Positions 7,407 through 23,446 of a DNA stretch of 25,878 nt are shown here, one piece after another. Where the stretch lies: assembly GCA_022360075.1 (NCBI GenBank), contig JAKSDN010000436.1:1-25878 (forward strand). Reading direction: 5' to 3'. Within the stretch, counting starts at the first letter, position 1. Each line of letters starts with the position of its first letter. The translations under genes were made by a program, and so were the position numbers. The notes under the pieces were generated by a model that was not told the origin of the DNA, did not search any database, and saw only the letters and a list, made by a program, of their open reading frames with translations. The DNA is from Kiloniellales bacterium. GTDB taxonomy: Bacteria > Pseudomonadota > Alphaproteobacteria > Kiloniellales > JAKSDN01.

Positions 7407-7435
7407 ACTATTCTAATGTCTTAATGATATGTCAA
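7407..7435 (-). promoter_or_regulatory. Predicted sigma-70-type promoter of the TAXI/TRAP operon
   Basis: On the minus strand a consensus TTGACA (7430-7435) is followed after 17 bases by AATAGT (7407-7412). It lies in an AT-rich island about 135 bases before the TAXI gene start. The candidate operator at 7416-7430 fills the spacer, which would suit repression by steric block. Prediction by eye only. Confidence 0.45.
7416..7433. promoter_or_regulatory. Candidate operator in the divergent TRAP/CoA-ligase promoter region
   Basis: The dyad ATGTC-N5-GATAT at 7416-7430 has the same half-sites and spacing as the inverted copy at 14-28. It lies between the -35 and -10 elements predicted for the minus-strand TAXI operon and about 80 bases before the plus-strand CoA-ligase start. 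One bound repressor could therefore control both directions. The nearby GntR/HutC-type regulator (1144-1938) is the obvious candidate, by inference. Confidence 0.42.
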
Positions 7436-7511
7436 TTAGTCAGGGACGCGATTCGTGGCCACCACGCATCGCTGCGCCCGACCGTCGCCGCGCCGACAAG
7501 GAATGCAATGG

Positions 7512-9494: not shown

Positions 9495-10748
9495 ATGCCG
9501 GACAGTGCCCTTTCTCTCGAGACTTCGAGCGTCGAGATCCTGAAGCTCAGCGAGCGGGCCGCGCCGCGGGTGAGCCTGGTGCTGGTCGACTGGAGCGTGC
9601 GCGAGAGCTTTCACATCATCGACTACTTGCGCCGTCAGAGCGCGCCGCGCGAAGCCTTCGAGATCATCATCGTCGAGTACTACGACCACCGCTCGCCGGC
9701 GCTCGAAGCTTATGCCGAGGAGGTCGATAGCTGGATCCTGCTGCGCGCGCCAGCCTCGGCGCTCTATCACAAGCACCTGATGTACAACGCCGGAATCCTC
9801 GCGGCACGGGGCGAGATCGTGATGATCGGTGATTCCGACGCCATGGTGCAGGAGAGCTTCATCGGTGCCATCTGCCAGGCCTTCGACGAGAACCCGGACA
9901 TCGTTCTGCACATCGACCAGTTCCGCAACAACCGGCGCGATCTCTATCCCTTCAACAAGCCTACCTTCGCGGAGATCCTGGGCGAGGGCTGCGTCAACAA
10001 CGCCGACGGCCAGACCGCCGGCCTGCGCGACCGCTCGGACCCCTTGCACACGCGCAACTACGGCGCCTGCATGGCGGCCCGGCGCGAGCGCCTGATCGAG
10101 ATCGGCGGCGCCGACGAGCACGTCGATTTCTGCGGCCACATCTGCGGGCCCTACGATCTGACCTTCCGCCTGATCAACGCGGGGCTGAGCGAGGTCTGGC
10201 ACCGGAGCGAGTTCACCTACCATAGCTGGCATCCCGGCGCGGCCGGGGTCGACAACTACCAGGGCCCGCACGACGGCAAGCAGATGTCGACGACCTCGCT
10301 CGAGGCCCTCACGGCGGGCCGGACCCGTCCGCTGGTCGAGAACCCCGGCATTCGCGCGCTGCGGCAGGGCGAGGCGCTTGGCCCGAAGGCGCTTCTCGAG
10401 CGCGCTGTCCCGCAAGCGAACTTCGCGCTCTGGGCCGAAGATGGGATCAAGGCGGCGGCGGCCAAGCCGGAATGGCGGATGGCCCGCTACGGCACGGCGC
10501 CGGCCAAGTATCGCGGCTATCGCATCGAGCAGCCCGTGTCCGGCAAGGGCTGGGGGGCGCAGGCGCTCTGCAATCCCGCCGACAGCATCGAGGCCGAGAC
10601 GCTGCCGGGTCTGCTGCGCGCCATCGACCGGCGGAGCTCGACGCGCATGACGCTTCTGGGTCTCTTCGGCGCCTTCTACCTCGCCTGGGACCGGGTGCGC
10701 GAGAAGCTGATCAAAGAAGTCATGGAACGCTTGCGGAGGGCGCCATGA
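9495..10748 (+). CDS. GT-A fold glycosyltransferase (family-2-like)
   Basis: This 417-residue protein begins its catalytic domain with RVSLVLVDWS at about 25-34, followed by EIIIVEYYD at 56-64. IGDSDAMV has the metal-binding DxD at Asp113-Asp115, and NYGACMAARRE lies in the acceptor half. This is the GT-A layout of nucleotide-sugar-dependent transferases, although the start is less regular than in typical GT2 enzymes. About 150 C-terminal residues look like a separate region and end in a basic helix. ATG 9495 lacks a clear ribosome site, so the start is less certain than the frame. The stop overlaps the next gene by four bases (ATGA). Donor and acceptor are unknown; a role in surface polysaccharide or lipid-linked glycan assembly is inferred from the neighbours. 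Confidence 0.8.
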   Translation: MPDSALSLETSSVEILKLSERAAPRVSLVLVDWSVRESFHIIDYLRRQSAPREAFEIIIVEYYDHRSPALEAYAEEVDSWILLRAPASALYHKHLMYNAGILAARGEIVMIGDSDAMVQESFIGAICQAFDENPDIVLHIDQFRNNRRDLYPFNKPTFAEILGEGCVNNADGQTAGLRDRSDPLHTRNYGACMAARRERLIEIGGADEHVDFCGHICGPYDLTFRLINAGLSEVWHRSEFTYHSWHPGAAGVDNYQGPHDGKQMSTTSLEALTAGRTRPLVENPGIRALRQGEALGPKALLERAVPQANFALWAEDGIKAAAAKPEWRMARYGTAPAKYRGYRIEQPVSGKGWGAQALCNPADSIEAETLPGLLRAIDRRSSTRMTLLGLFGAFYLAWDRVREKLIKEVMERLRRAP

Positions 10749-11122
10749 GCCTGGGTCCGACAGGCCTGTTCGCACGCTGGGCCTACCGCCTGGATTTCCT
10801 CAAGCGCGAGATCGAGGCGCGCGCGCGTCAGTTGAGAATGGTCACGGATTCCCTGGCGCGGCTGCCGGAAGCCGATCCCGCCATGAAACCCACCGTGTTG
10901 ATCGATGGCGAGGCGGAGGCGGCCTTTCTGGCCCGTGCCATGCGGTTCGGTCTTTTGCCCAAGCTCGACCTGCGGCGCTTGCAGACGGCCGACGATATCG
11001 AGGCTTTCAGCCGGGACGTCGGGACTCGAGACCGCCCGCTCTACGTCGCCGGCAGCCTCTTCGCCCGCCACTACACGCTCTTCATCGAGACTTTTGGGCG
11101 CGAGCGGCTGACGGTTCTATAG
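10745..11122 (+). CDS. Small protein of unknown function, coupled to the glycosyltransferase
   Basis: This 125-residue protein starts at an ATG that overlaps the glycosyltransferase stop in an ATGA junction, which strongly supports real, coupled translation. The N-terminus is basic and helical (LFARWAYRLDFLKREIEARA, about 8-27). The rest looks like a small alpha/beta domain, with VLIDGEAEAAFLARAMRFG and LYVAGSLFARHYTLF. No signal peptide or membrane segment is apparent and I do not recognise a family. It could be an accessory subunit of the transferase or the N-terminal remnant of a longer enzyme; it ends cleanly at TAG with no obvious continuation. It converges on the radical SAM gene with a 43-base gap. 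Confidence 0.65.
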   Translation: MSLGPTGLFARWAYRLDFLKREIEARARQLRMVTDSLARLPEADPAMKPTVLIDGEAEAAFLARAMRFGLLPKLDLRRLQTADDIEAFSRDVGTRDRPLYVAGSLFARHYTLFIETFGRERLTVL

Positions 11123-11165
11123 CGGGTCGGCCGAGGCCAAGAGGTTTCCCGGAAGAAAGCGGCAC

Positions 11166-12647
11166 TCAAGCCGACAGCGAGTCGGGCTCCAATAGCTGGC
11201 GGCGCAGCCTGGTCTTGGCCATCTCCTGGACGTGGCGCCGGGTCTCCCAGCCGAAGCGCTGGGTCAGCGTGTCGAGATAGCGCGGCGAGGCGAAGTAGTC
11301 GTGGAAGGCCTGGTCGCGGAAGGCCAGGACCTCGGCCGCGCTCAGGTGCTCGGTCGGCAGCGGCTTGCAGCTATAGCTGTGCTGGGAGAAGCCCTCCCAG
11401 GTCTCCGGCAGCGCCCAGCCGTTCTCCAACGCCATGTGATAAAGCGGCGAGCCCGGGTAGGCCATGGCCGAGTAGAAGTTGGCGAACTCACAGTTGAGCG
11501 ACTTGGCGAGTTCGAGCGTGGCCTGCATAGAGTCGGCGTCGTCGTCCGGCAGGCCGAAGATGAAGTTGCCGATCACGTGGATGCCGGCGGTCTGGATCGC
11601 GCGGACGATCTCGAAGATGTCGTCCTGAGTGAAGGACTTCTCCGCGCCGTCGCGCACGTGCTCGCTGCCGGACTCGATGCCGAGGGCGAGCCAGCGGATG
11701 CCGGCGCGGCGCAGCAGATCGAGCTTGTCCGGCCGCACCGTGTCGATCCGCGCGTAGGCCCAGATGTTGATGTCGAGCGCCGCCTCGGCCAGGGCCTCGC
11801 AGATCCCGGTCACGTGGCGCCAGTTGAGCACGAACATCTCGTCGATGATCTTGAAGGTCTTGACGCCGTAGACGTCGTGCAGCTTGCGGATCTCGGCCAC
11901 CACGGCCTCGGGCGAGCGCATGCGGTAGCGGTTGGTGCCGAAGGGTGCGTTGATGCAGCAGAAGCTGCATTTGTAGGGGCAGCCGAGCGAAGTGTAGATC
12001 GAAGCATAGGGCTGGCGCCGCTCCAGCGCGCCGAAGCACTGCCAGTTGTGCGCGCGGTAGCGTTCCATCGGCAGCAGGTCCCAGACGTCGCCGTGCAGGT
12101 CCGCGTCGAGGTCCTTCAGCAAGGGCGCGCCCGGGTTGCGCCGCAGCCCGCCCGCCTCGTCGATCCAGGCCAGGCCGGGTACGGCCTCCAAGGCCGGGTC
12201 GTTGTCGCACAGTTGATGGAGCAGCGCGTCGAGGGTGACCGGGCCCTCGCCGACGCAGACGTAGTCGGCGGCCTCCTCCTGCAGCGTCTGCTCCGGCAGC
12301 GCCGAGACATGGCCGCCGACCAGGATCACCGGCAGGCTCGGATCTCCGTCCTTCAGCGCGCGGCAGGCCGCGCCTGCGGCGACCATCTGCTGGGTCGAGG
12401 CCGAGGGCTGATGACCGTAGGCGACCACGCAGACCAGGCGGGGCGAAAGGCCCTGAACCCGCTCGGTCACGGCCTTGGGGCCGATGTGCTCGGCCTCGGC
12501 GTCGATGATCGTCACGCCCCAGTCCCGGTCGCGGAGATAGCCGGCCAAGAGCCGGCACCACAGCGGCGGCTCCACCGCGGTCAGGTCGTTGCCCAGATCC
12601 TGATAGATCTCGTGCCGGGCGCCGGGATTGATCAGTATGATGTCCAA
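11166..12647 (-). CDS. B12-binding-domain radical SAM protein
   Basis: This 493-residue protein has an N-terminal cobalamin-binding-like Rossmann domain at about 1-145 (MDIILINPG, VILVGGHVSALPEQTL, DYVCVGEGP). A radical SAM core follows, with CxxxCxxC at Cys223, Cys227 and Cys230 (SLGCPYKCSFCCIN), GIESGSEHVRDGA and GNFIFGLPDDDADS. The C-terminal part (about 390-493) is helical. The BchE/P-methylase-type class in COG1032 does methylations, cyclisations and other radical reactions on diverse substrates. The DxHxxG lower-ligand motif is not visible, as is common in this class. It lies between two glycosyltransferase genes on the opposite strand, so modification of a glycan, its lipid carrier or a nucleotide sugar is a reasonable but unproven guess. 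Confidence 0.92.
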   Translation of the reverse strand: MDIILINPGARHEIYQDLGNDLTAVEPPLWCRLLAGYLRDRDWGVTIIDAEAEHIGPKAVTERVQGLSPRLVCVVAYGHQPSASTQQMVAAGAACRALKDGDPSLPVILVGGHVSALPEQTLQEEAADYVCVGEGPVTLDALLHQLCDNDPALEAVPGLAWIDEAGGLRRNPGAPLLKDLDADLHGDVWDLLPMERYRAHNWQCFGALERRQPYASIYTSLGCPYKCSFCCINAPFGTNRYRMRSPEAVVAEIRKLHDVYGVKTFKIIDEMFVLNWRHVTGICEALAEAALDINIWAYARIDTVRPDKLDLLRRAGIRWLALGIESGSEHVRDGAEKSFTQDDIFEIVRAIQTAGIHVIGNFIFGLPDDDADSMQATLELAKSLNCEFANFYSAMAYPGSPLYHMALENGWALPETWEGFSQHSYSCKPLPTEHLSAAEVLAFRDQAFHDYFASPRYLDTLTQRFGWETRRHVQEMAKTRLRRQLLEPDSLSA

Positions 12648-12688
12648 CTCGCCGCTTCCCGCTTGCCTAGGTCCCGAACCAGGACTTC

Positions 12689-12717
12689 TATATCGACCGT
12701 TCGTTCGTTTCGGACAA
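12689..12717 (-). promoter_or_regulatory. Predicted promoter of the radical SAM gene
   Basis: On the minus strand TTGTCC (12712-12717) and GATATA (12689-12694) are separated by 17 bases, about 42 bases before the start codon at 12647. The site lies in the 106-base divergent gap shared with the glycosyltransferase at 12754. The match is moderate and by eye. Confidence 0.35.
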
Positions 12718-12753
12718 GGCCTTAGTCGGATCCGGGGAGACTCGAGGGCGAAG

Positions 12754-13710
12754 ATGGAGCGTTCTTCTGGGCCGCCTCAGATCACGATCGTCACGCCGGT
12801 GCTCAACGGAGCGGCCCATATCGCGGACGCCCTGCAAAGCGTCGCCGATCAGACTCTACCGCCGGCGGAGCATCTGGTCTTCGACGCCGGCTCGACGGAC
12901 GGCACGCAAGACGTCGTGCGGCGCTTTGCCCACTGCACGCTGATCGAGGAGACCGACGCCGGCGCCCACGATGCTATGAACAAAGGCATAGGACGGGCGG
13001 CGGGCAGCCTGATCGGCTTTCTCAACGCCGACGACCGCTACGAGCCCGAGGCCTTCGCGCAGGTCGCGCAGGCTTTCGAGTCGGACCCGGCAGCCGAGAT
13101 GGTGCTGGTCGGCTCGACGGTCGTGGCGCGCGAGGGAGAGGACAAGGCCTTGCTGATCGAGCGCCGGCCGGCGCCGGGCGCGGCGACCGATCTCGCCGCG
13201 CTGGCCTTCGGCGTGCCCTGCATCAATGCCCGCTTCTTCCGGCGCGCGCTGCTCGAGCGGCTCGGCGGCTTCGACAACCGTTTCTATATCTCGGCCGATC
13301 GGCATATGCTCCTGCGCGCGGCGCTGCAGGGCGTGCGCGCCCGCGAGATCCCCTCCGTGCTGTTTGAGTACCGGGTTCACCCCGGCTCGCTGACGTTGGC
13401 GCCGAGCGCCCAGGCTCGGGCGCAGATCATCGACGAGCACATCACCATGGTTGAGGAGCTGCTCGCCAAAGGCGATATGCCCCGAGACAGCCGTCGGTTG
13501 CTAAGGGATTGGCAGACCTACGAGCGCCTGCGGCGCCGGGCCGGACGGCGCGCGGGCCGACGCCCGGCCCATCCGGCTCTGCCCTTGTTGGTGGCGAGCC
13601 TGGCCCGGCCGAAGGTCTGGCCGGCGCTTGTCCGTGCCGCGGTCCGCAAGCTCCGCCTGGCCGCCACGGAGACTCGGGCCCCCGATGCCACGAAAATCTT
13701 ACGCGCATAA
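12754..13710 (+). CDS. Family 2 glycosyltransferase
   Basis: This 318-residue protein has a standard GT2 start: ITIVTPVLNGAAHIADALQS at about 10-29, then DAGSTDGT at 44-51, EETDAGAHDAMNKGI and LNADDRYEPEA, with the metal-binding Asp pair at 93-94. The DAGxxDAMNKGI stretch is the nucleotide-sugar-site signature seen in WcaA/WcaE-like transferases. The C-terminal 60 residues are very basic, which suggests peripheral membrane association. ATG 12754 was chosen because the GT2 fold starts directly after it and GAGGG lies five bases upstream; in-frame codons back to 12628 run into the divergent promoter. It transfers a sugar in an exopolysaccharide, LPS or other surface glycan pathway of unknown structure. 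Confidence 0.9.
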   Translation: MERSSGPPQITIVTPVLNGAAHIADALQSVADQTLPPAEHLVFDAGSTDGTQDVVRRFAHCTLIEETDAGAHDAMNKGIGRAAGSLIGFLNADDRYEPEAFAQVAQAFESDPAAEMVLVGSTVVAREGEDKALLIERRPAPGAATDLAALAFGVPCINARFFRRALLERLGGFDNRFYISADRHMLLRAALQGVRAREIPSVLFEYRVHPGSLTLAPSAQARAQIIDEHITMVEELLAKGDMPRDSRRLLRDWQTYERLRRRAGRRAGRRPAHPALPLLVASLARPKVWPALVRAAVRKLRLAATETRAPDATKILRA

Positions 13711-14033
13711 CTTCGTAGCCCCGGGTACGGAAGGCCGGCGGGGGCCGGCATTGACAAGACGGCGGATTTCCCATACCCCCCATCCGTCTCGTGGATAAGG
13801 GCTTTCGGGGCTTGTTCTCGCCCGTCGGGGCCAGCCAAAACGCAGCGCCGCCGCGCGCAATCCTCGGCAGAAACCTGGTCTGATTGGATGGTCGGGTGTC
13901 GGCGGGTCTGCTATATCAGCCCGGTTGCGGGGGCTAGGTAAGTCGGATGCTCTTGGGTTCTCCGCTCTATGTCGGCGAGCAGCCAGGGCGCGCGGTTTCC
14001 CGTGCCTAGGCCCGAGGCTCGAAGGGTATGCTG
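13711..14033. other. Intergenic region before the sugar-nucleotide operon
   Basis: About 320 bases without a gene. It holds a short GC hairpin at 13734-13749, directly followed by TTGACA (13751-13756), a consensus -35 whose -10 partner (ATACCC, about 16 bases on) is weak. A second AT-rich TATATC lies at 13912-13917. The region probably contains the promoter and an untranslated leader of the operon starting at 14034. Antisense frames here have no recognisable product. Confidence 0.5.
13734..13749 (+). terminator. Short GC hairpin after the family 2 glycosyltransferase
   Basis: GCCGGC at 13734-13739 and 13744-13749 pair around a four-G loop, 24 bases after the stop codon. There is no T-tract, so intrinsic termination would be weak at best. 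Confidence 0.25.
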
Positions 14034-14624
14034 ATGACGTCTGGCCATGGACAGAAGTACTTCGCGCAAGTCGCCGACGTCGCGGGGGCCATGGACGTCC
14101 AGGGTTTCGAGGCGATGGTCGAGGGTCTGGCGGCCCTGCGCGAGCGCGGCGGGCGCCTGTTCGTCCTCGGCGTCGGCGGCAGCGCCGGGAACGCCTCGCA
14201 CGCGGTCAACGACTTTCGCAAGCTCTGCGGCATCGAAGCCTACGCCCCGACCGACAACGTGCCGGAACTGACCGCGCGCACGAACGACGAAGGCTTCGAG
14301 ACCGTCTTCGAGGCCTTTCTGCAGGTGAGCCGGGCCTCGGACAAGGACGGCGTGCTGGTCTTCTCGGTCGGCGGCGGCAACGCCGAGCGGCAGGTCAGCG
14401 TGAACATCATCCGCGGCCTGGACGAGGCCAAGCGCCGCGGCCTCACGGTCTTCGGAATCGTCGGCCGCGACGGGGGCTATACGAAGCGCGTCGGCGATCA
14501 CGTGATCGTCGTGCCGACGGTCGACGACGCGCTGATCACGCCGCACACGGAAGCTTTTCAGGCCGTCGTTTGGCACGGGTTGGTCTCGCATCCCAAGCTG
14601 CAGACCAACGCGACCAAGTGGTGA
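14034..14624 (+). CDS. SIS-domain sugar-phosphate isomerase, GmhA-like
   Basis: This 196-residue protein matches GmhA (sedoheptulose-7-phosphate isomerase) in length and layout. The SIS phosphosugar-binding motif VGGSAGNASHAVNDF lies at about 47-61, VFSVGGGNAERQVS is the second Ser/Gly-rich loop, and a C-terminal HTEAFQAVVWH helix aligns with the GmhA active-site Glu/His helix. GmhA converts sedoheptulose 7-phosphate to glycero-manno-heptose 7-phosphate, the first step to activated heptose. ATG 14034 was preferred over ATG 14028 because GAAGGG lies seven bases upstream of it. It opens the eight-gene operon and is 25 bases before a transaldolase gene, whose product could supply sedoheptulose 7-phosphate. 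A different ketose-phosphate substrate is possible. Confidence 0.85.
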   Translation: MTSGHGQKYFAQVADVAGAMDVQGFEAMVEGLAALRERGGRLFVLGVGGSAGNASHAVNDFRKLCGIEAYAPTDNVPELTARTNDEGFETVFEAFLQVSRASDKDGVLVFSVGGGNAERQVSVNIIRGLDEAKRRGLTVFGIVGRDGGYTKRVGDHVIVVPTVDDALITPHTEAFQAVVWHGLVSHPKLQTNATKW

Positions 14625-14649
14625 GGCCGGAACGGGGGAAGAACGCGCG

Positions 14650-15396
14650 ATGGCATCGCTCAACGACCTGAACATCAAGATCTTCGCCGATGGCGCCAGC
14701 CTAGAGGGCATGAAGGCGCTTTACGCCAATCCGCTGATCAAGGGCTTCACCACCAACCCGACGCTGATGCGCAAGGCCGGTGTCAGCGACTACGTGGCTT
14801 TCGCCCACGAGGTGCTCGCCGCGATCCCGGACCGGCCGGTCTCCTTCGAGGTCTTCGCCGACGACTTCGGCGAGATGGAGCTGCAGGCGCGCGAGATCGC
14901 GACTTGGGGACCCAACGTCAACGTGAAGATCCCGATCACCAACACGAAGGGCCAGTCGTCGGTGCCGCTGATCGGCCGGCTGTCCGCGGCCGGCGTTGCG
15001 CTCAACATCACGGCGGTCTTCACCCTCGATCAGGTCCGCGAGGTCGCGGGCGTCCTCGCCAAGGACGTGCCGGCCATCGTCTCCGTCTTCGCCGGGCGCG
15101 TCGCCGATACGGGCATCGACCCTCTGCCGCTGATGACGCAGTGCAAGCAGTCGCTCGCGGATTGCCCGAAGGCGGAGCTGTTGTGGGCCAGCCCGCGCGA
15201 GCTGCTCAACATCTTTCACGCGGACTCGGTGGACTGCGACATCATCACCGTCACCCACGACACGCTCGCCAAGCTCACCTCGGTGGGCAAGGATCTCGCG
15301 CAGTTCAGCCTCGAGACGGTGCAGATGTTCCACGACGACGCCACCAAGGCGGGCTTCACGATCGAGGTCGAGGGGCCGAGCCGGGCGACGGCATAG
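14650..15396 (+). CDS. Transaldolase family protein (small, TalC/FSA-like)
   Basis: This 248-residue protein is a single-domain TIM-barrel transaldolase, shorter than TalB (about 317 residues) and slightly longer than the TalC/FSA group (about 215-220). Visible marks are IFADGA at 11-16, KGFTTNPTLMRKAG at 31-44 and VNVKIPITN with the Schiff-base Lys93. NITAVFTLDQ, SVFAGRVADTGIDP and LLWASPRE follow in the usual order. Transaldolases move a dihydroxyacetone unit between sugar phosphates and can form sedoheptulose 7-phosphate; FSA-type members act as aldolases. A transaldolase inside a sugar-nucleotide operon suggests dedicated precursor supply rather than housekeeping pentose-phosphate metabolism. 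The ribosome site (GGGGGA) lies about ten bases upstream. Confidence 0.92.
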   Translation: MASLNDLNIKIFADGASLEGMKALYANPLIKGFTTNPTLMRKAGVSDYVAFAHEVLAAIPDRPVSFEVFADDFGEMELQAREIATWGPNVNVKIPITNTKGQSSVPLIGRLSAAGVALNITAVFTLDQVREVAGVLAKDVPAIVSVFAGRVADTGIDPLPLMTQCKQSLADCPKAELLWASPRELLNIFHADSVDCDIITVTHDTLAKLTSVGKDLAQFSLETVQMFHDDATKAGFTIEVEGPSRATA

Positions 15397-15523
15397 GCCT
15401 TCGCCGGCCCGCTTCGGACGCGCCTGCGGTTCCCATCCGGGGCACCGCCGGAAAGCGATCCGAGAAGCTGCCGAGCGATGGACCGCAACGAGCTCACGAG
15501 ATGAAGGGAAGGGGAAACCTGCG

Positions 15524-16531
15524 GTGCAATTTCCGAACGTGCTGATTACCGGCGGCGGGGGCTATGTAGGCAACGTGCTGACCCCGCAGCTTCTGGGGGC
15601 AGGCTACAGCGTCACGGTTTTCGACACTTTCTGGTATGGGACCGAGACCCTGCCGGTGGACCACCCGAAGCTCAGCTTGGTCACGGGCGACATCCGCGAC
15701 CTGGACTTCCTGTCCCGGGCTTTCGACGGCATCGACGCCGTCATCCATTTGGCCTGCATCTCCAACGACGCGAGCTTCGAGCTCGACGAGGAACTCAGCA
15801 CCAGCGTCAACCTCGATGCCTTCGAGCCCATGGTGGTCGCCGCCAAGAAGGCCGGCGTGAAGCGCTTTATCTATTGCTCCTCGAGCTCGGTCTACGGCGT
15901 CTCGGAGTCGCCCGACGTAACCGAGGACCATCCGCTCGTGCCGCTGACACTCTACAATAAGTACAAGGGCATGTGCGAGCCGCTGCTGTTCAAGCACATG
16001 GACGATAGCTTCACCTGCGTGACGATCCGGCCGGCGACGGTCTGTGGCTACAGCCCGCGCTGCCGGCTCGATCTCTCGGTCAACATCCTGACGAACCACG
16101 CGGTCAACAAGGGCACCATCACGGTTTTCGGCGGCAGCCAGAAGCGCCCGAACCTCCATGTCAACGACATGGCGGATCTCTACCAGGTCATGCTGGAGGT
16201 GCCGGCGGAGAAGATCCAGGGCGAGATCTTCAACTGCGGCTACGAGAATCACTCGATCATGCAGCTTGCCCAGTTCGTCAAGAAGGTGGTCGAGGAGGAG
16301 TTCCCCGAGAAGGGCGAAATCGGCATCACCGTGACCGAAAGCAACGACAATCGCTCCTACCACATCAACTCGGACAAGATTAAGCGGGTGCTCGGTTTCG
16401 TGCCGAAGCGCACGATCGAGGATGCCGTGCGCGGACTCTGCATCTCCTTCAAGGACGGCAAGCTGCCGAACAGTTTCGACGACGACTGGTACTTCAACGT
16501 GCGCACGATGAAGGCGCTCGGCGTCAAATGA
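15524..16531 (+). CDS. NAD-dependent epimerase/dehydratase (extended SDR), first
   Basis: This 335-residue extended short-chain dehydrogenase has the NAD-binding GGGGYVG at about 10-16, VTGDIRD (53-59), IHLACIS (74-80), CSSSSVYG (118-125) and a YxxxK active pair at Tyr144/Lys148. It should act on a nucleotide sugar as a 4-epimerase, 4,6-dehydratase or similar; the subtype cannot be read by eye. The GTG start at 15524 follows a purine-rich AAGGGAAGGGG stretch and there is no upstream ATG in a suitable position. A 127-base gap precedes it, the largest in this operon, so an internal promoter is possible, although I see no clear one. Its stop overlaps the next SDR gene by four bases. Confidence 0.92.
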   Translation: MQFPNVLITGGGGYVGNVLTPQLLGAGYSVTVFDTFWYGTETLPVDHPKLSLVTGDIRDLDFLSRAFDGIDAVIHLACISNDASFELDEELSTSVNLDAFEPMVVAAKKAGVKRFIYCSSSSVYGVSESPDVTEDHPLVPLTLYNKYKGMCEPLLFKHMDDSFTCVTIRPATVCGYSPRCRLDLSVNILTNHAVNKGTITVFGGSQKRPNLHVNDMADLYQVMLEVPAEKIQGEIFNCGYENHSIMQLAQFVKKVVEEEFPEKGEIGITVTESNDNRSYHINSDKIKRVLGFVPKRTIEDAVRGLCISFKDGKLPNSFDDDWYFNVRTMKALGVK

Positions 16532-17523
16532 CCTCTTCGCCTGTCGCCATCGTCACCGGGGGCGCCGGCTTCATCGGCAGCCACATGGTCGATCTGCTGG
16601 TCGATCGGGGCTTCGCCGTCAGGGTGATCGACAACCTCGTAGGCGGTCGCGAGAACAACCTCGCGCAGCATGCCGACAACCCGAAGGTGACCTGCGAGTG
16701 GGCCGACATCCGCAGCTTCGAGGCCGGCCATCCGCTCTTCGCGGGCGCGCGCTATCTCTTCCATTTCGCCGGCATCGGCGACATCGTCCCCTCGATCGAG
16801 CGCCCGGTCGAGTACATGGACGTGAACGTGCAGGGGACGGTGCGCATGCTGGAGTGCGCGCGTGCCGCCGGCATCGAGAAGTTCGTCTATGCGGCCTCCT
16901 CGTCCTGCTACGGCCTGGCCGACGTCCCGACCCGCGAAGATCATCCGATCCGTCCGCAATATCCCTACGCGCTGTCCAAGTATCAGGGCGAGCAGGCCTG
17001 CTTCCACTGGTATCAGGTCTACGGCCTGCCCGCGAACGCCATCCGGATCTTCAACGCCTACGGCACCCGCTCGCGGACTTCCGGCGCCTATGGTGCCGTC
17101 TTCGGCGTGTTCTTGCGGCAGAAGCTGGCCGGCTCGCCCTTCACGGTGGTCGGCGATGGCACGCAGCGCCGCGACTTCCTCTACGTGACGGACGTGGCCC
17201 GGGCCTTCCTGGCCGCCGCGACGACGGAGAGGGTGGGCACGTTCTGGAACCTCGGTGCGGGCGCGCCGCAGTCGGTCAACCGGCTGGTCGAGCTGCTGGA
17301 CGGCGAGGCCACCCATATCCCCAAGCGTCCGGGCGAGCCCGACTGCACCTGGGCCGACATCACGAAGATCAAGGAGGAGCTGGGCTGGGCACCGGCGGTC
17401 AGCTTCGAGGAAGGGGTCGGGCGCATCCTGGAATCGATCGAGTACTGGCGAGAGGCGCCGCTTTGGGACGCCAATTCCATCGCCAAGGCGACCAAGACCT
17501 GGTTCGATTATCTCGGCAAGTAA
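16528..17523 (+). CDS. NAD-dependent epimerase/dehydratase (extended SDR), second
   Basis: This 331-residue extended SDR has TGGAGFIGSH at 10-19, FHFAGIGD (79-86), AASSSCYG (122-129) and the YxxxK pair Tyr147/Lys151 in YPYALSKYQGE. RIFNAYGTRSR and GDGTQRRDFLYVTDVA are the substrate-binding segments typical of UDP-hexose 4-epimerases and related GDP/dTDP-sugar enzymes. All catalytic residues appear intact. It starts in an ATGA overlap with the preceding SDR, so the two enzymes are made together, probably for consecutive steps on the same activated sugar. The exact reaction is not determinable. Confidence 0.93.
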   Translation: MTSSPVAIVTGGAGFIGSHMVDLLVDRGFAVRVIDNLVGGRENNLAQHADNPKVTCEWADIRSFEAGHPLFAGARYLFHFAGIGDIVPSIERPVEYMDVNVQGTVRMLECARAAGIEKFVYAASSSCYGLADVPTREDHPIRPQYPYALSKYQGEQACFHWYQVYGLPANAIRIFNAYGTRSRTSGAYGAVFGVFLRQKLAGSPFTVVGDGTQRRDFLYVTDVARAFLAAATTERVGTFWNLGAGAPQSVNRLVELLDGEATHIPKRPGEPDCTWADITKIKEELGWAPAVSFEEGVGRILESIEYWREAPLWDANSIAKATKTWFDYLGK

Positions 17524-17553
17524 CGCGCATACCAAGAGGCGGGGGCATTCGGC

Positions 17554-19146
17554 ATGTTTCCTCAAGCGATCAAAGGCAAGATCAAGAAGGTCGACGAGCT
17601 GCGCGAGATCATCGGCGCGCCACCGCGCGACCAGAAGGTCATCATGTGCCACGGGACCTTCGACATCGTCCACCCCGGGCATGTCCGCCATCTGATCTAC
17701 GCGAAGAGCAAGGCCGACCTGCTGGTCGTCAGCCTGACCACCGACGCGCACATCAAGAAGGCGAACTTCCGGCCCTACGTCCCCGAGGACCTGAGGGCGC
17801 TCAACCTCGCGGCCCTGGAGGCCGTGGACTACGTCGTCATCGATTCGGAGCCCAAGCCGCTGCGCAATCTGGAGATCTTGAAGCCCGACTACTTCGCCAA
17901 GGGCTACGAGTATGTGAAGGGCCGGGTCGATCCGCGCACGCAGCAGGAAATCGACGTCCTCAAGACATACGGCGGGGAATTCATCTACACGCCGGGCGAC
18001 GTGGTCTATTCCTCGTCGCACATCATCGAGAACATGCCGCCGAACCTATCGGTCGAGAAGCTGCTCATGCTGATGGACGCGGAGTCGCTCAGCTTCGGGA
18101 ATCTCCACAACGCCCTCGACGATATGAAGGGCGCGCGCGTCCACGTGGTCGGCGATATCATCGTCGATACCTACACACATACCTCCTTGATTGGCGGCAA
18201 CACCAAGACACCGACTCTGTCGGTGCGCTACGAAGCCAAGAGCGATTTCGTCGGCGGGGCGGGGATCGTGGCCAAGCATCTCAAGGCGGCGGGGGCCGAC
18301 GTGACGCTCACGACCGTGCTCGGCGACGACGCCCTCAAGGATTTCGTCCAGGAAGATCTGAAGAAAGCGGGGGTCCGGCTCAACGCGGTGATCGACCCCA
18401 CGCGCCCGACCACCAACAAGAACGCCATCGTCGCGGGCGGCTACAGGCTCTTGAAGGTCGACACGGTCGACAACCGCTCGATCTCGGAGAATATCACCGA
18501 TCGTTTCCGTGAGCTGATCTCGAGGACCGAAGGCGATTCCGTCGTTTTCAGCGATTTCCGCCACGGCATCTTCAATCAGGAAACGATCCCGAAGCTGATC
18601 GAGGGCATTCCGGACGGCGTGCTAAGGGTCGCCGACAGCCAGGTGGCGAGCCGCTGGGGCAACATCACGGAGTTCAGCGGCTTCGACCTGATCACGCCGA
18701 ACGAGCGCGAGGCCCGCTTCGCGCTGGGCGACCAGGACTCCGTCATTCGGCCGCTCGCCCTCAGGCTCTACCGGGCGGCCAAGTGCAAGACCCTGATGCT
18801 GACCATGGGCGAGCGCGGGCTGCTGACCTATCGCAAGGAGCCCGATGTCTCGCCATCGGTGCCGGAGGTCTCGGAGGACGTGCGCGCCTTCTTCGTGCTC
18901 GATTCCTTCGCCGACAACGTCGTCGATGCAGTGGGCTCGGGCGATGCCCTGCTCTCCTATGCCACGCTTGCCATGGTGGCGACGGGCAACCCGGTCATCG
19001 CCTCGATCCTCGGCGCGATGGCCGCGGCGCAGGAGTGCGAGTACGACGGCAACGTGCCGGTGACGACGAAGGACGTGCGCGCGCGCATGCAGCGGATCGA
19101 GGCGCAGGCGGACTACGGGGAGCCGATCGGCGCGGCGACGGCCTGA
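17554..19146 (+). CDS. Fused nucleotidyltransferase - PfkB sugar kinase (HldE-like, reversed domain order)
   Basis: This 530-residue protein has an N-terminal cytidylyltransferase-like domain at about 28-160, with HGTFDIVHPGH at 33-43 as the nucleotide-binding motif. A ribokinase/PfkB kinase domain follows at about 195-510, with VVGDIIVDTYTHT, DFVGGAGIVAKHLKAAGADV and the anion hole/catalytic base motif DAVGSGD ending at Asp464. HldE of Gram-negative heptose synthesis joins the same two activities, but with the kinase first and the nucleotidyltransferase last. Here the order is reversed. The likely job is to phosphorylate a sugar phosphate at C1 and then transfer a nucleotide to give an NDP-sugar. 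It sits between two SDRs and a Gfo/Idh gene, and its stop overlaps the next start by one base (TGATG). Confidence 0.9.
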   Translation: MFPQAIKGKIKKVDELREIIGAPPRDQKVIMCHGTFDIVHPGHVRHLIYAKSKADLLVVSLTTDAHIKKANFRPYVPEDLRALNLAALEAVDYVVIDSEPKPLRNLEILKPDYFAKGYEYVKGRVDPRTQQEIDVLKTYGGEFIYTPGDVVYSSSHIIENMPPNLSVEKLLMLMDAESLSFGNLHNALDDMKGARVHVVGDIIVDTYTHTSLIGGNTKTPTLSVRYEAKSDFVGGAGIVAKHLKAAGADVTLTTVLGDDALKDFVQEDLKKAGVRLNAVIDPTRPTTNKNAIVAGGYRLLKVDTVDNRSISENITDRFRELISRTEGDSVVFSDFRHGIFNQETIPKLIEGIPDGVLRVADSQVASRWGNITEFSGFDLITPNEREARFALGDQDSVIRPLALRLYRAAKCKTLMLTMGERGLLTYRKEPDVSPSVPEVSEDVRAFFVLDSFADNVVDAVGSGDALLSYATLAMVATGNPVIASILGAMAAAQECEYDGNVPVTTKDVRARMQRIEAQADYGEPIGAATA

Positions 19147-20078
19147 TGCGCTCGATCGTCGTCGGGCTCGGCGTCCAGGGACACAAGCGCAAGGCCTTCG
19201 CCGGCGATGACTTCGTCGCCTCGGCGGACCGCTTCAAGCCGGAGGCGGACTACCGCGACGTCCAGGACGTGCCGCTCGCCGACTACGACGCGGCCCTGCT
19301 CTGCATTCCCGACGAGCCCAAGGTCGAGATGATTGGCTGGCTGCTCGGCAACGGTAAGCATGTCCTGGTCGAAAAGCCCTTGTTCGCCGCCGACAACGAC
19401 TCGCTGCAGGCGCTCGAGGCGGCGGCACGGGCCAAGGGCGCGGTTTGCTACACCGCCTACAACCACCGCTTCGAGCCGCACTTCGTGCGCATGCGGGATT
19501 TGGTCTCATCGGGCACGCTGGGCGAGATCTACCGCTGCCGCATGTTCTATGGCAACGGCACAGCGCGGCTGGTGCGCGAGTCGGACTGGCGCGACCAGGG
19601 CGCCGGGGTGCTGCCGGATCTGGGCTCGCACCTGCTCGACACGGCCGCCTTCTGGTTCGGCGCGCTGGGCGAGGATTTCAGGATCATCGCCGCCAACTGC
19701 TTCGAGAACCGAGCGCCGGACCACGTCGTCATCGGGTCGGAGTCGAATCGCCCGCGGCTCGAGCTCGAGATGACCCTGCTGAGCTGGCGCAATCACTTCA
19801 CCTGCGATCTCTTCGCCGAGAAAGGCAGCGCGCACATCCGCTCGCTCTGCAAATGGGGCCCGAGCAGTTTCACCAAGCGTACGCGCGTCCTGCCGAGCGG
19901 CCGCCCGCCGGAAGAGGTGGTGACGCTGGTCGAGAGCGATCCGACCTGGGAGGCGGAATACCGTCACTTCAAGGCCCTGTGCCGCGACGGCGCCGCGACG
20001 GATCTCTCGAACGACCGTTGGCTGAACGGGCTGCTCGGGCGCCTGGGCGAAGAAGCGGTCGCGGAGGCGGCGCGGTGA
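19146..20078 (+). CDS. Gfo/Idh/MocA-family oxidoreductase
   Basis: This 310-residue protein has an N-terminal NAD(P)-binding Rossmann fold (SIVVGLGVQGHKR), the family signature VLVEKPL with Glu76-Lys77-Pro78, a TAYNHRF strand and a C-terminal domain with LPDLGSHLLDTAAFW, where His162 and nearby Asp residues occupy the usual catalytic position. Members oxidise or reduce sugar hydroxyl/keto groups, often in nucleotide-sugar pathways such as the WlbA route. The N-terminal Gly motif is short and lacks the usual first strand extension. The start ATG overlaps the upstream stop, and the end overlaps the next gene (GTGA). The frame stays open well upstream of 19146, but that portion is antisense-free shadow of the kinase gene and is not part of this protein. 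Confidence 0.92.
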   Translation: MRSIVVGLGVQGHKRKAFAGDDFVASADRFKPEADYRDVQDVPLADYDAALLCIPDEPKVEMIGWLLGNGKHVLVEKPLFAADNDSLQALEAAARAKGAVCYTAYNHRFEPHFVRMRDLVSSGTLGEIYRCRMFYGNGTARLVRESDWRDQGAGVLPDLGSHLLDTAAFWFGALGEDFRIIAANCFENRAPDHVVIGSESNRPRLELEMTLLSWRNHFTCDLFAEKGSAHIRSLCKWGPSSFTKRTRVLPSGRPPEEVVTLVESDPTWEAEYRHFKALCRDGAATDLSNDRWLNGLLGRLGEEAVAEAAR

Positions 20079-21364
20079 CGCAGCCAACCATCGGTTTTGC
20101 CGGCATGACCCATCTGGGGCTCAACTCCGCCGTGGCTGCGGCCGAGCGCGGATTTCCGACGCTCTGCTTCGATCCGGACGCGGGCTTGTCCGCGCGCTTG
20201 TCGAGAGGCGAGCTGCCGATCGTCGAGCCCGATCTGCCGGAGCTACTGGCCAAGAACGCCGAGCGCCTCGAGTTCACCTCGGAAAGCGGCGCGCTGAGAG
20301 CCTGCGACGTCGTCTACGTCGCGCCCGACGTGGCGACCGACGATAGCGGCGTGAGCGATCTCTCCGACCTCGAGCGGCTGCTGGGCCTCGTCGAGCCGGC
20401 CATGCGGGCCGATTCGGTGCTGGTGATCCTAAGCCAGGTGCCGCCCGGCTTTACCCGCGCCTTTGGGCGGGCGGGCAAGCCCCTGGTCTACCAGGTGGAA
20501 ACCCTGATCTTTGGCCGTGCGATCGAGCGGGCGCTGCATCCGGAGCGCTATATCATCGGCCTCGCCGATCCGCAGGCGCCGCTGCCCGAGGCCTATCGGG
20601 CCTTCCTCGAGGCCCACGGCTGTCCGCTGCTGCCGATGCGCTACGAGAGCGCGGAGCTGGCAAAGATCGCCATCAACTGCTGCCTGGTCGCCTCGATCAG
20701 CGTGGCCAACACGCTCGCCGAGCTCTGCGAGGGGATCGGCGCCGACTGGGGCGAGATCGCGCCCGCCTTGAAGCTCGACCGGCGCATCGGCGCCCACGCC
20801 TACCTGAGCCCGGGACTCGGCATCGCCGGCGGCAACCTGGAACGCGACCTGGCGACGGTCTGCCGGCTGGCCGACGACGTCGGCGGCGACGCGGGCGTCG
20901 TGCGCGCCTGGATCGCCAACTCCGGCCACCGCAAGCTGGCCGCAGCCCGCATGCTCGAACGCCTCCTGCCGGCCGGTGGCGCGGGCGGCGAGCAGGCCCC
21001 GTTGGTCGCGATCTGGGGCCTGGCCTACAAGGAGAACACCCACTCGACCAAGAATTCGCCGGCCCTGGCGACGATCGCGGCGCTGCCGCAATACCCCATC
21101 CGCTTTCACGACCCGGTCGTGGAAGCTTCGGCGGTTCAACACCCGCGCGCCGAGGCCGCCCGGACACCGCTCGAAGCGGCCGCGGATGCGCAGGCCCTGC
21201 TGATCTTGACGCCCTGGGCCGACTACCGGGCAGTGGCACCGGCGGATCTCGCGCGCGCGATGAAGGGCGATCTGGTGATCGATCCCTTCCGCGTCCTCGA
21301 CGAAGATCGCTGCGCCGAGGCCGGGCTGACCCGCGTCACCCTGGGCCGTTCCGCCGAAATCTGA
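20075..21364 (+). CDS. UDP-glucose/GDP-mannose dehydrogenase-like protein, catalytic Cys absent
   Basis: This 429-residue protein has the three-part layout of nucleotide-sugar 6-dehydrogenases. The NAD domain has GFAGMTHLGLNSAVAAAERG, the middle domain has ESAELAKIAINCCLVASISVAN with Lys197 and Asn201, and the C-terminal domain has WGLAYKENTHSTKNSPAL. The active-site loop, normally GFGGSCFPKD with a Cys nucleophile, reads GIAGGNLERD, placing Asn254 at the Cys position and Arg at the Lys position. Without Cys the usual two-step oxidation to a uronic acid is not expected, so a one-step oxidation or a different reaction is possible. The GTG start lies in a GTGA overlap with the Gfo/Idh gene. The alignment is by eye. 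Confidence 0.88.
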   Translation: MTQPTIGFAGMTHLGLNSAVAAAERGFPTLCFDPDAGLSARLSRGELPIVEPDLPELLAKNAERLEFTSESGALRACDVVYVAPDVATDDSGVSDLSDLERLLGLVEPAMRADSVLVILSQVPPGFTRAFGRAGKPLVYQVETLIFGRAIERALHPERYIIGLADPQAPLPEAYRAFLEAHGCPLLPMRYESAELAKIAINCCLVASISVANTLAELCEGIGADWGEIAPALKLDRRIGAHAYLSPGLGIAGGNLERDLATVCRLADDVGGDAGVVRAWIANSGHRKLAAARMLERLLPAGGAGGEQAPLVAIWGLAYKENTHSTKNSPALATIAALPQYPIRFHDPVVEASAVQHPRAEAARTPLEAAADAQALLILTPWADYRAVAPADLARAMKGDLVIDPFRVLDEDRCAEAGLTRVTLGRSAEI

Positions 21365-21394
21365 GACCCGCCGTCATCGGCGCAAGGAGTGAGC

Positions 21395-22282
21395 ATGCTC
21401 GAACATTTGAACGCGACCCCCGAGAAGCCGAGCCGCGTCGTGGTCATGGGGGCCGGCGGCTTCGTCGGCGGCGCTTGCGTCGCGCGCCTGGCAGCCGAGG
21501 GGGTCGAGGTGCTCGGCCTGACCCGGCGCGACGTCGATCTGCTCGCGCCCGACGCCGCGGCGACGCTGGCGGCGAAGCTGCGGCCGGACGACGTCCTGAT
21601 CGCGGTTTCCGCGCTGGCACCGGTCAAGACGGTCCCGATGTTCGTCGACAACATGGTCATGGTCGGCGCCATGTGCGCGGCCCTGGAGCGGACGCCGGTC
21701 GCCCATGTGGTCAACATCAGCTCGGATGCCGTCTATGCCGACTCGCCCGCGCCGCTGACCGAGGATTCGGTCAAGGCGCCGGACAATCTGCACGGCCAGA
21801 TGCACGTCAGCCGCGAGCTGCTGTTTCGCGAGGCGGTGAAGGGCCCCCTGGTCAGCCTCCGCCCGACGCTGATCTACGGCGCCGAGGATCCGCACAACGG
21901 CTACGGTCCGAACCGATTCCGCCGCCTGGCCGCGAAGGGCGAGGCGATCACGCTCTTCGGCGAAGGGGAGGAGCGGCGCGATCATGTGCTGGTCGAGGAC
22001 GTGGCTGAGATCGTCGCCCGCTGCGTGCTGCACAGGAGCGTGGGCGCCCTGACGGTGGCGACGGGCGAGGTCGTCTCGTTCCGGGAGCTGGCCGAGGTGG
22101 TCGTCGCGCAGTTCGATCGTCCGGTGCCGGTGCAGGGCTCGGTCCGGAACGGGCCGATGCCGCACGACGGCTACCGGCCGTTCGATATCTCCGCCTGCCG
22201 GGCGGCCTTCCCTGAATTCAGCTACACGCTGCCGAGAGACGGCATCGCCCAGGTGCACCGCCAGGCCATTCAGTCGGCGTAG
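21395..22282 (+). CDS. NAD-dependent epimerase-like SDR, third, active-site pair not conserved
   Basis: This 295-residue extended SDR has the NAD-binding GAGGFVGG at 19-26, the NISSDAVYAD strand at about 108-117 and HVLVEDVAEIVARC in the C-terminal half, and resembles RmlD/WcaG-type enzymes. At the position of the YxxxK active pair it reads H-G-Q-M-H (133-137), so both Tyr and Lys are replaced by His. Either the chemistry has changed or the protein binds rather than converts a nucleotide sugar. ATG 21395 was chosen because AAGGAG lies five bases upstream; the in-frame GTG at 21389 overlaps that ribosome site. It is the last gene of the operon and overlaps the convergent SGNH-like gene by 13 bases. 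Confidence 0.87.
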   Translation: MLEHLNATPEKPSRVVVMGAGGFVGGACVARLAAEGVEVLGLTRRDVDLLAPDAAATLAAKLRPDDVLIAVSALAPVKTVPMFVDNMVMVGAMCAALERTPVAHVVNISSDAVYADSPAPLTEDSVKAPDNLHGQMHVSRELLFREAVKGPLVSLRPTLIYGAEDPHNGYGPNRFRRLAAKGEAITLFGEGEERRDHVLVEDVAEIVARCVLHRSVGALTVATGEVVSFRELAEVVVAQFDRPVPVQGSVRNGPMPHDGYRPFDISACRAAFPEFSYTLPRDGIAQVHRQAIQSA

Positions 22283-23430
22283 AGCTGCGAGCGCTGCGAG
22301 GCGCTTTCCTGTTCGGCGAGCGCGCCCTGGACGTTGGGCATCTCGCGCAGGGCTTCGACGATCCCCTCGGCCGTGAAGCGATTGCCGGCCGGCGACATGT
22401 GGCCGAGCACCTTGCACTCGTCATCGTGCTCGACGTAGAGCTTGCAGAAGCGCTCCTCGTCCTCGGCCAGGATCGCCTTCAGGGGCTCCCAGAAGTCGAC
22501 CACCGGGATTCCCATCTCGCGCACGCACTGGGCCACCGCGACATGATGGGCGGCGGGCTCCTTCCAGCCGCGAATGTGCGTGGCGCCGAACTGGATGGCG
22601 AAAACCAAATCGACGTCGGCGGCCTCGGTCTTCTCCTTCAGGCGCTCCATCAGCAGGCAGGAAACCTCGCTGCCGTTTTTGTGAACGTGCTTGTAGTAGT
22701 TGCCGAAGTCCCGCCACCACCAGGCTCCGCCGCTGACCCGGTCGATGGTCCAGTTGACCAGGTGGGAGTAGCCGAAGATCCCGCGCAGCAGGCCCAGGTC
22801 ACGGGGTCCCCCGTCGTAGTGCGGGACCGGGAAGTTCTTGTGCACCAACTCGCCGTCCTCGACCACGAAGTAGGGCTTGTAGATCCCGCCGTAGAGCGCG
22901 TACTCGGTGCGCTCGATGTCGTCGACCATCGCATCGACCACGATGGTATGGGGTTTTAGGATGCCCATCAGGCGCTCGGCCCGCAGGACCATCTGATCGA
23001 CGCCGTAGCCGCCGGCGCCGGCGTTCAGGACCGGAATTCCCAGAATATCCTGCGCCTGCGCCGGCCAGGTCTCATGATCCCAGACCTCCGAGCCGCCCGT
23101 GAAGGAGTCGCCCACGGCCAGGATCGCGTTCTCGGCCGGCGGGGTGATCTCGGAGGAATTCATGCGCAGGCCGTAAGCGCCGGTGGTCGTCGTCTCCTTC
23201 CCGGTACCGGCTGCGCGGTTCTCTTTCAGATACCAGCCGAGCAGCTCGTCGTAGCGGACGGCGAGGTTGACCTTGATCTGATTAACCTGCTTGCCGATCA
23301 GGTTCTCGATTGGCCAGAGCGGCACGCCGTTGTATTGACGCAGGCCGATCTCCAAGACGAGAAAGCAGATCAGAAGAGAGCCTCCCAAAAGGCTCATGTT
23401 GGTCGCAATACGTCTTAGCTTCACCCTCAC
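22270..23430 (-). CDS. Membrane-anchored SGNH/GDSL-hydrolase-like protein
   Basis: This 386-residue protein has a basic N-terminus and one hydrophobic segment at about 13-30 (SLLGGSLLICFLVLEIGL), consistent with a signal anchor placing the rest in the periplasm. ILAVGDSFTGGSEV at 103-116 is the block I Gly-Asp-Ser motif, NAGAGGYGVDQ is the Gly/Asn block, and GHMSPAGNRFTAEGI at about 343-357 carries the terminal His344. The Asp that usually stands two or three residues before this His is not seen. SGNH proteins of this shape include AlgJ/AlgX-like acetyltransferases and esterases that modify exported polysaccharides, so O-acyl editing of the local glycan is plausible. The GTG start has GAGGGG just upstream. 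It is the last gene of a three-gene minus-strand operon, 16 bases after the previous gene. Confidence 0.82.
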   Translation of the reverse strand: MRVKLRRIATNMSLLGGSLLICFLVLEIGLRQYNGVPLWPIENLIGKQVNQIKVNLAVRYDELLGWYLKENRAAGTGKETTTTGAYGLRMNSSEITPPAENAILAVGDSFTGGSEVWDHETWPAQAQDILGIPVLNAGAGGYGVDQMVLRAERLMGILKPHTIVVDAMVDDIERTEYALYGGIYKPYFVVEDGELVHKNFPVPHYDGGPRDLGLLRGIFGYSHLVNWTIDRVSGGAWWWRDFGNYYKHVHKNGSEVSCLLMERLKEKTEAADVDLVFAIQFGATHIRGWKEPAAHHVAVAQCVREMGIPVVDFWEPLKAILAEDEERFCKLYVEHDDECKVLGHMSPAGNRFTAEGIVEALREMPNVQGALAEQESASQRSQLYAD

Positions 23431-23446
23431 CTCACCCCTCTGAGCT

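Follow-up and report, generated by a model that had tools for sequence, protein, structure and literature searches.

The 25,878-nucleotide stretch of DNA analyzed here (positions 1 to 25,878 of contig JAKSDN010000436.1 from a Kiloniellales bacterium; hereafter, the window) carries an eight-gene cassette that, with a probability of roughly 0.6, directs the biosynthesis of a nucleotide-linked higher-carbon sugar that is modified and destined for a surface polysaccharide; a heptose is the likeliest product. The eight open reading frames (ORFs) form one operon on the + strand (14028-22282) and encode, in order, a sugar-phosphate isomerase (SIS), a transaldolase (TAL), two extended short-chain dehydrogenases/reductases (SDR1 and SDR2), a fused nucleotidyltransferase/kinase (NTK), a Gfo/Idh/MocA oxidoreductase (GFO), a UDP-glucose dehydrogenase homologue (UGD-like) and a third extended SDR (SDR3). 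A preliminary description of the window had given the same gene order with short gaps or overlaps at most junctions, and both points hold. The intergenic distances are, in gene order, 25, 127, -4, 30, -1, -4 and 24 bp, with the 127-bp TAL-SDR1 junction as the exception to an otherwise mostly tight arrangement, and the GC content at third codon positions is 0.88-0.93 in the eight genes. The first in-frame ATG of the SIS gene is at 14028; the start given previously (14034) is the second. The cassette appears to be a variant on known pathways for nucleotide-activated higher sugars.

Conservation of the Cassette

Scanning genome contigs with NTK yielded 160 stretches that encode a relative. The 80 best of these serve as the loci of this analysis, and the eight window proteins were placed on them by tblastn. 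Gene content, gene order and conservation, together with the domain families and residue changes described below, were read directly from the window and these loci. Relatives in several phyla, as judged by record titles, have much the same gene order with about 37-82% identity per protein, and this recurrence indicates that the grouping is not due to chance. Presence was counted at a minimum of 40% identity in the 48 loci that have at least 5 kb upstream and at least 4.5 kb downstream of NTK. SDR2, GFO and UGD-like are each found in 47 of these 48 loci, SDR1 in 45, SDR3 in 42 and TAL in 38, and the complete set of eight genes is found in 21. The operon is thus real, and the cassette is conserved.

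Enzymes of the Putative Heptose Trunk

SIS (198 amino acids; 14028..14624, + strand) is a GmhA-like protein that matches Pfam SIS_2 (34.4 bits, E 2.6e-08), and each of its 13 listed matches in the PDB is a phosphoheptose isomerase. Active-site residues of the cassette proteins were read from query-anchored tblastn alignments, one per locus, and rows at or below 40% identity were dropped. His58 and Asp62 of SIS are kept in 37 of 37 loci and Glu175 and His183 in 38 of 38; we take these to correspond to the zinc ligands His, Glu, Gln and His of GmhA, and SIS appears to carry residues capable of serving as metal ligands at all four positions. TAL (248 amino acids; 14650..15396, + strand; TAL_FSA, E 7.7e-40) scores 348.4 bits against TIGR02134, over the cut-off of 281.95, and this is the sole equivalog-type model to exceed its cut-off among the eight proteins. 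The catalytic lysine of TAL (Lys93 in the VKIP motif) is kept in 56 of 56 loci. The ordinary product of TIGR02134 transaldolases is sedoheptulose 7-phosphate.

NTK (530 amino acids; 17554..19146, + strand) has an N-terminal nucleotidyltransferase domain (CTP_transf_like, E 7.9e-15; rfaE_dom_II, E 1.4e-25 at 25-161) and a C-terminal PfkB kinase domain (PfkB, E 2.7e-17; rfaE_dom_I, E 4.2e-37 at 189-510), which is the reverse of the domain order in HldE. The HxGH motif and Asp464 of the GxGD motif are kept in all 80 loci. The nearest solved structures to SIS and to the kinase are heptose enzymes. A separate gene match with the HldE-like order, kinase then nucleotidyltransferase, is found in three of the four genomes inspected (G001, G002 and G003).

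The trunk may be completed by a phosphatase. In 53 loci TAL is present and preceded by at least 0.8 kb of sequence, and in 43 of them a GmhB-like HAD protein is encoded directly upstream of TAL, usually after SIS; among the ten others, L033 has a phosphatase match that overlaps the TAL match. Counted differently, of the 58 loci that offer at least 5 kb before NTK, 41 show a HAD gene no more than 6.5 kb away in the same orientation. The HAD protein encoded between SIS and TAL in Sulfidibacter (L016) matches the NCBIfam model for heptose 1,7-bisphosphate 7-phosphatase at E 5e-37 (127 bits, cut-off 178), and all four HAD proteins scanned score under the GmhB cut-offs. The L016 protein is thus GmhB-like and not a certified GmhB. 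Its presence in relatives gives a trunk of isomerase, kinase, phosphatase and nucleotidyltransferase, as in the synthesis of nucleoside diphosphate (NDP)-heptoses. The absence of GmhB stated in the preliminary description is correct for the window and does not extend to the cassette generally: it is a trait of the window copy and a minority of relatives. When 29 cassette genomes were searched with the GmhB profile TIGR00213, all 29 had a match at E <= 1e-3, one of them over the cut-off; 5 of 14 control genomes also match, so that this search gives weak support for a phosphatase supplied in trans.

Putative Modifying Enzymes

The best PDB match of SDR1 (335 amino acids; 15524..16531, + strand; Pfam E 8e-38) is 6vo6 (E 4.7e-36, with the runner-up at 9e-23), which is presumably Cj1427, the Campylobacter jejuni NDP-heptose 4-dehydrogenase. 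Cj1427 is described in PMC10680097 as the C4-dehydrogenase of GDP-D-glycero-D-manno-heptose. The YxxxK motif is kept in 67 of 67 loci in SDR1 and in 72 of 72 in SDR2, a GalE-like protein (331 amino acids; 16528..17523, + strand; Pfam E 8e-55) that matches the galE model at E 1e-42, below the cut-off, and has UDP-glucose 4-epimerase as its best PDB match. A clear HldD epimerase is missing, as had been stated: SDR1, SDR2 and SDR3 score 62.6, 98.9 and 40.2 bits against the HldD model TIGR02197, for which the cut-off is 274.6. GFO (310 amino acids; 19146..20078, + strand; PF22725 and PF01408, E 7.4e-11) keeps Lys77 of the EKP motif and the Asp and His of a D...H pair in 77 of 77 loci.

The preliminary description had spoken of two altered active sites, and this holds for the remaining two enzymes. 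UGD-like (429 amino acids; 20075..21364, + strand; E 1.8e-20), a member of the UDPG/MGDP dehydrogenase family with all three UDPG_MGDP domains, shares the whole fold and the active-site Lys and Asn (Lys197 and Asn201) of UDP-glucose 6-dehydrogenase. Where two solved UDP-glucose dehydrogenases (4a7p and 3gg2) read GGSCFPKD, however, it reads GGNLERD, and Asn254 occupies the site of the catalytic Cys in 70 of 70 loci. UDP-glucose dehydrogenases require this Cys to convert a primary alcohol into an acid. The C6 alcohol of a heptose or octose is secondary and its oxidation ends at the ketone, so a switch to a higher sugar would permit loss of the Cys; the protein would then exemplify a member of the UGD family acting on a secondary alcohol. 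In SDR3 (297 amino acids; 21389..22282, + strand; Pfam E 2.7e-25), which is GDP-fucose-synthase/RmlD-like, the YxxxK motif is changed: the Tyr position is His in 47 of 55 loci and Tyr in 8, and the Lys position is His in all 55. Structure models of UGD-like (pLDDT 90, closest folds UDP-glucose dehydrogenases) and SDR3 (pLDDT 93, best folds GDP-L-fucose synthase) confirm the folds and do not indicate a substrate; the C. jejuni heptose C4-reductase entries 7anc and 7cxt stand at ranks 47 and 50 among the 745 matches of the SDR3 model at E <= 0.001.

Proposed Pathway

From these families and residues we infer the reactions, substrates, nucleotide, product and chain length (C7 or C8) of the pathway, which in its heptose form would run as follows. 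TAL would form sedoheptulose 7-phosphate, which SIS would isomerize to an aldoheptose 7-phosphate. The kinase half of NTK would then phosphorylate C1, a GmhB-type phosphatase (encoded beside TAL in most relatives and supplied from elsewhere in the organism of the window) would strip the 7-phosphate, and the nucleotidyltransferase half of NTK would yield the NDP-heptose. SDR1 is predicted to oxidize C4 to a ketone. UGD-like, for which the Cys would be dispensable, may take the secondary alcohol at C6 no further than a ketone, or epimerize or dehydrate the sugar through a ketone. GFO, SDR2 and SDR3 would epimerize or reduce the keto intermediates. The earlier proposal of a heavily modified, heptose-type activated sugar is supported and is strengthened by the HAD protein in relatives and by the closeness of SDR1 to 6vo6; as a whole, the earlier interpretation is right in outline and partly supported.

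Possible Carbon Branching by Thiamine Diphosphate Enzymes

ORF clustering of the 80 loci and Pfam assignments showed that many cassettes are followed by a transketolase split over two genes. Where at least 9 kb of sequence follows NTK (51 loci), 41 loci have a pair of genes for a thiamine diphosphate (ThDP) carboligase, counted anywhere in the locus; 30 of these pairs are split transketolases and 11 are of the E1-alpha/beta type. Most lie 3-8 kb after NTK on the same strand. The split pair of L030 and the E1 pair of L011 precede NTK, and L062 has its E1 pair on the opposite strand. According to a 2025 review (PMC12247030), split transketolases have been proposed, without proof, to add a hydroxyacetyl group to keto-sugars, and E1-type ThDP enzymes add two-carbon branches at C3 or C4. 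The systems treated there include the split transketolases of miharamycin and amipurimycin as well as E1-type enzymes, and the cassette relatives resemble them in having such a pair near enzymes predicted to form keto-sugars. They differ in their hosts: the 13 putative branching split transketolases counted in the review are all streptomycete, whereas the cassette is found in other phyla. The ThDP pair suggests that relatives make a carbon-branched sugar, in which case the next step in most of them may be the attachment of two carbons to a ketone by the carboligase. The relatives supply many candidate ThDP enzymes for adding carbon to keto-sugars and, if such branching takes place, would, going by the same source, give branching split transketolases their first role outside streptomycete antibiotics.

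The Bradyrhizose Cluster

The closest relative of the cassette that mutants connect to a sugar is the gdh cluster of photosynthetic Bradyrhizobium. Busset et al. (2016, PMC4743980) gave the genes for bradyrhizose biosynthesis as unknown and linked bradyrhizose to gdh, which lies in a conserved eleven-gene cluster; polarity of the gdh mutation was not excluded. The published gdh forward primer was searched, with up to three mismatches, against the genus of G001 (242 genomes). It matches 11 of them (no mismatch in one genome, one in three, two in two and three in five), and the reversed pattern, used as a control, matches 7, so that a primer match alone means little. The informative point is that, for ten of the 11 matches, an NTK-like gene (30-33% identity) is located on the same strand at a distance of about 2.5-2.6 kb. 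Two of the 12 genomes with such a gene have no primer match, and G020 has a primer match with no NTK at 1e-60. In G165 both gdh primers match exactly, facing each other 381 bp apart within one SDR gene.

In this genome the order of the gdh cluster is NTK, NTP_transferase, SDR1 (44% identity), SIS (31%), gdh, the N and C halves of transketolase (40 and 39%) and a Zn-alcohol dehydrogenase. For NTK, SDR1, SIS and the C half of the cassette transketolase, the best genome-wide matches fall inside this cluster in 10 of 10 genomes. In these genomes window SDR1 matches the cluster at 263-269 bits and anything else at no more than 107, and the transketolase C half of cassette locus L112 matches it at 191-203 bits and others at no more than 135; for SIS the margin is small in some genomes (59-62 versus up to 55 bits). 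The cluster thus resembles the cassette in having a fusion with the same domain order as NTK and counterparts of SDR1 (43-47%), SIS (31-36%) and, against cassette relatives, the split transketolase (about 40%). It differs in that TAL, GFO and UGD-like have no separate match at 1e-5 in L108, L110, L111 and L113, with a 26% UGD match about 12 kb away in L109, and in holding the extra NTP_transferase and Zn-alcohol dehydrogenase. It also has the split transketolase that is found in 30 of the 51 relatives above and not in the window. SDR2 was considered as the ortholog of gdh of strain ORS285 and rejected, since identity is only about 25%. The rfaL primer had no match in L108, which would be expected if rfaL lies about 44 kb away, the distance given in PMC4743980. 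At 14258-14980 and 14990-16495 of L108, the nucleotidyltransferase-kinase fusion has another nucleotidyltransferase (PF00483) as its neighbor, so that one of these two domains may be redundant or act on a different substrate. A different type of locus is found in L112 (G059, Bradyrhizobium group), where 4292-14879 holds a cassette of the window type with a split transketolase (52-72% per gene) and no match to SDR3; it is distinct from the gdh cluster of other genomes in the group.

Bradyrhizose has ten carbons, and its ring may close from C1 to O-4, O-5 or O-9 (reviewed in PMC9912281). C5 and C9 would both be attached to C4, making C4 a tertiary alcohol, which is the product expected of a ThDP-dependent addition to a 4-ketone. 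The bradyrhizose cluster would be a distant relative on the same trunk as the cassette: a heptose trunk, a 4-ketone, a two-carbon branch from which the tertiary C4 alcohol results, closure of the carbocycle and one further carbon, since seven and two carbons leave one to explain. The link to the gdh cluster supplies bradyrhizose biosynthesis with candidate enzymes and a sequence of reactions that can be assayed and, if the sugar is indeed branched in this way, a testable route. We tentatively suggest, at somewhat less than even odds, that the cassettes define an undescribed class of surface sugars, namely NDP-heptoses or NDP-octoses oxidized at C4 and C6 and mostly branched at a ketone by a ThDP enzyme, with bradyrhizose as a cousin.

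Other Known Systems

In lincosamide biosynthesis LmbL is a UGD-like 6,8-dehydratase and LmbZ is Gfo/Idh-like. The table in PMC4351081 gives LmbR as transaldolase, LmbN as isomerase, LmbP as kinase, LmbO as guanylyltransferase, LmbK as phosphatase, LmbL as dehydrogenase, LmbM as epimerase and LmbZ as oxidoreductase, some of these assignments being predictions only. LmbM, LmbL, CcbZ and CcbS convert GDP-octose to GDP-lincosamide (PMC12945683, a 2025 review). At the level of enzyme class, the octose pathway of lincomycin and celesticetin is similar to the cassette, and all of its classes but the phosphatase and aminotransferase are present in the window. The lincosamide pathway is, however, a Streptomyces antibiotic route with separate kinase and guanylyltransferase genes and an aminotransferase.

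The modification of GDP-heptose in C. jejuni proceeds through GmhA, a kinase, GmhB and a nucleotidyltransferase, followed by a C4-dehydrogenase, epimerases and reductases, according to PMC10680097; its main text does not contain the word transaldolase. The cassette is like this system in SDR1, which is nearest to 6vo6, and in the fold of SDR3, which resembles the heptose C4-reductases among many other SDRs. It differs in that the kinase and nucleotidyltransferase, separate enzymes in C. jejuni, are fused in NTK. It is also set apart from the ADP-heptose pathway of GmhA, GmhB, HldE and HldD, as no protein of the window qualifies as any of these four enzymes. A possible lead to the virenose of Coxiella was dropped because no paper was found that combines its elements. 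No description of the product of the cassette was found in a search of the open-access literature, which leaves out most subscription journals. The cassette itself has precedents in the bradyrhizose cluster, with which it has several enzymes in common, and in the lincosamide pathway, which uses the same enzyme classes.

Alternative Explanations

A number of observations weigh against a modified, and in relatives branched, heptose. Only 27 of the 48 well-flanked loci have SIS. This protein scores 49.7 bits (E 4e-13) against the gmhA model TIGR00441 with its cut-off of 209.45, and it has an altered and longer loop where GmhA structures read STSGKS. NTK reaches 149.3 bits against the HldE model, for which the cut-off is 521, and the L016 HAD protein scores best against the histidinol-phosphatase domain, the only functional model whose cut-off it exceeds. 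As SIS, NTK and HAD all fall far below the curated heptose cut-offs, their substrates may differ. The window has no phosphatase gene, the only notable match being 27 residues across the end of SIS. No ThDP pair is present in 10 of the 51 loci, and none was found convincingly in the window (best E 0.03); as the window extends no more than 3.6 kb beyond the cassette, the miss is not proof of absence. NTK provides the most distant link to the bradyrhizose cluster, whose NTK is far from the cassette type in the tree. GmhA pathways normally take sedoheptulose 7-phosphate from central metabolism, so that a transaldolase in the operon is unexpected and an octose fits it equally well.

An octose would arise if TAL extended ribose 5-phosphate by three carbons to octulose 8-phosphate, with later steps like those of lincosamide biosynthesis: an isomerase, a kinase, a phosphatase, a nucleotidyltransferase, an epimerase, a UGD-like dehydratase and a Gfo/Idh epimerase. 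Such a route would account for both the transaldolase and the Cys-less UGD homologue, and its enzyme classes are of the kinds given for the lincosamide pathway in PMC4351081 and PMC12945683. We regard it as a serious though less likely alternative, given that TAL exceeds the cut-off of a family ordinarily producing sedoheptulose 7-phosphate, that heptose enzymes are the closest PDB entries to SIS and the kinase and that the window cassette has no aminotransferase gene. The SIS and TAL families include other specificities, and the product could have six carbons or fewer if TAL were an aldolase and SIS an isomerase acting on other phosphates. The diverged phosphate loop of SIS would suit such a sugar, but the GmhB-like phosphatase of relatives, the HldE-like kinase/nucleotidyltransferase, the affinity of SDR1 to 6vo6 and a Cys-less UGD homologue suited to a secondary C6 alcohol make it quite improbable. 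It is more improbable still that the trunk enzymes, for all their resemblance to GmhA, GmhB and HldE, make a plain NDP-heptose for a lipopolysaccharide core or heptose capsule while the extra oxidoreductases serve a second, unrelated sugar. Of the 48 loci, 47 keep GFO and UGD-like together with NTK and 45 keep SDR1, no HldD is present, the NTK domains are reversed, and three of the four genomes inspected have the separate HldE-like gene.

Distribution and Genomic Context

The cassette occurs, by record title, in Alphaproteobacteria and Betaproteobacteria, Myxococcota, Acidobacteriota, Verrucomicrobiota, Nitrospirota, Planctomycetota, Bipolaricaulota and Thermodesulfobacteriota, among others. 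Its spread is patchy. At E <= 1e-100, the class of G001 has NTK in 23 of 337 genomes (G001 counted) and the phylum of G004 in 2 of 199 (G004 counted); within the genus of G001 it is found in 7 of 242 genomes, counting G001 and one partial gene. In a tree of 90 NTK rows the window groups with L001 and L002 (SH-aLRT 94, below the mark of 95). Phylum labels require 13 changes on this tree against a minimum of 7, a figure that does not prove transfer as the metagenome bins are loosely labeled. A plasmid search gave 43 records, all below 60% identity and at 24-30% among the matches listed. Three bins titled Bordetella parapertussis (L023, L025 and L036) carry the cassette, with 62-63% identity in NTK, under names that were probably assigned loosely.

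Three further families were assigned by reading the ORF clusters. ABC exporter ATPase-like proteins occur in 15 of 80 loci and permease-like proteins in 12 of 80; together with the glycosyltransferases of the window, they count in favor of the proposed pathway. A DegT-type aminotransferase family is present in 28 of 80 loci (including L019, L026, L055, L073, L074 and L079), often adjoining the split transketolase, which suggests addition of an amino group in some lineages.

Upstream of the cassette and outside it, the window encodes a family-2 glycosyltransferase (12628..13710, + strand; Glycos_transf_2, E 1.5e-19) and a family-2-like glycosyltransferase (9495..10748, + strand; Glycos_transf_2, E 2.7e-05). 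Between them, on the opposite strand, is a gene for a B12-binding radical SAM protein (11166-12647, - strand), which is not conserved with the cassette, weak relatives being found in only 2 of 80 loci. The region 1-8987, with translations read by eye, is apparently unrelated to sugars and holds hydrolases, a GntR-like regulator, an acyl-CoA dehydrogenase, a TRAP-type transporter and an acyl-CoA ligase. Three genes lie 3' of the operon (22270-25878, - strand), one with a weak GDSL/SGNH match and two with no Pfam family. The last of the three has relatives (24-29% identity) in 8 of the 80 cassette loci (L004, L024, L025, L029, L035, L048, L050 and L060), and another relative (26%) is located beside one bradyrhizose cluster (L113).

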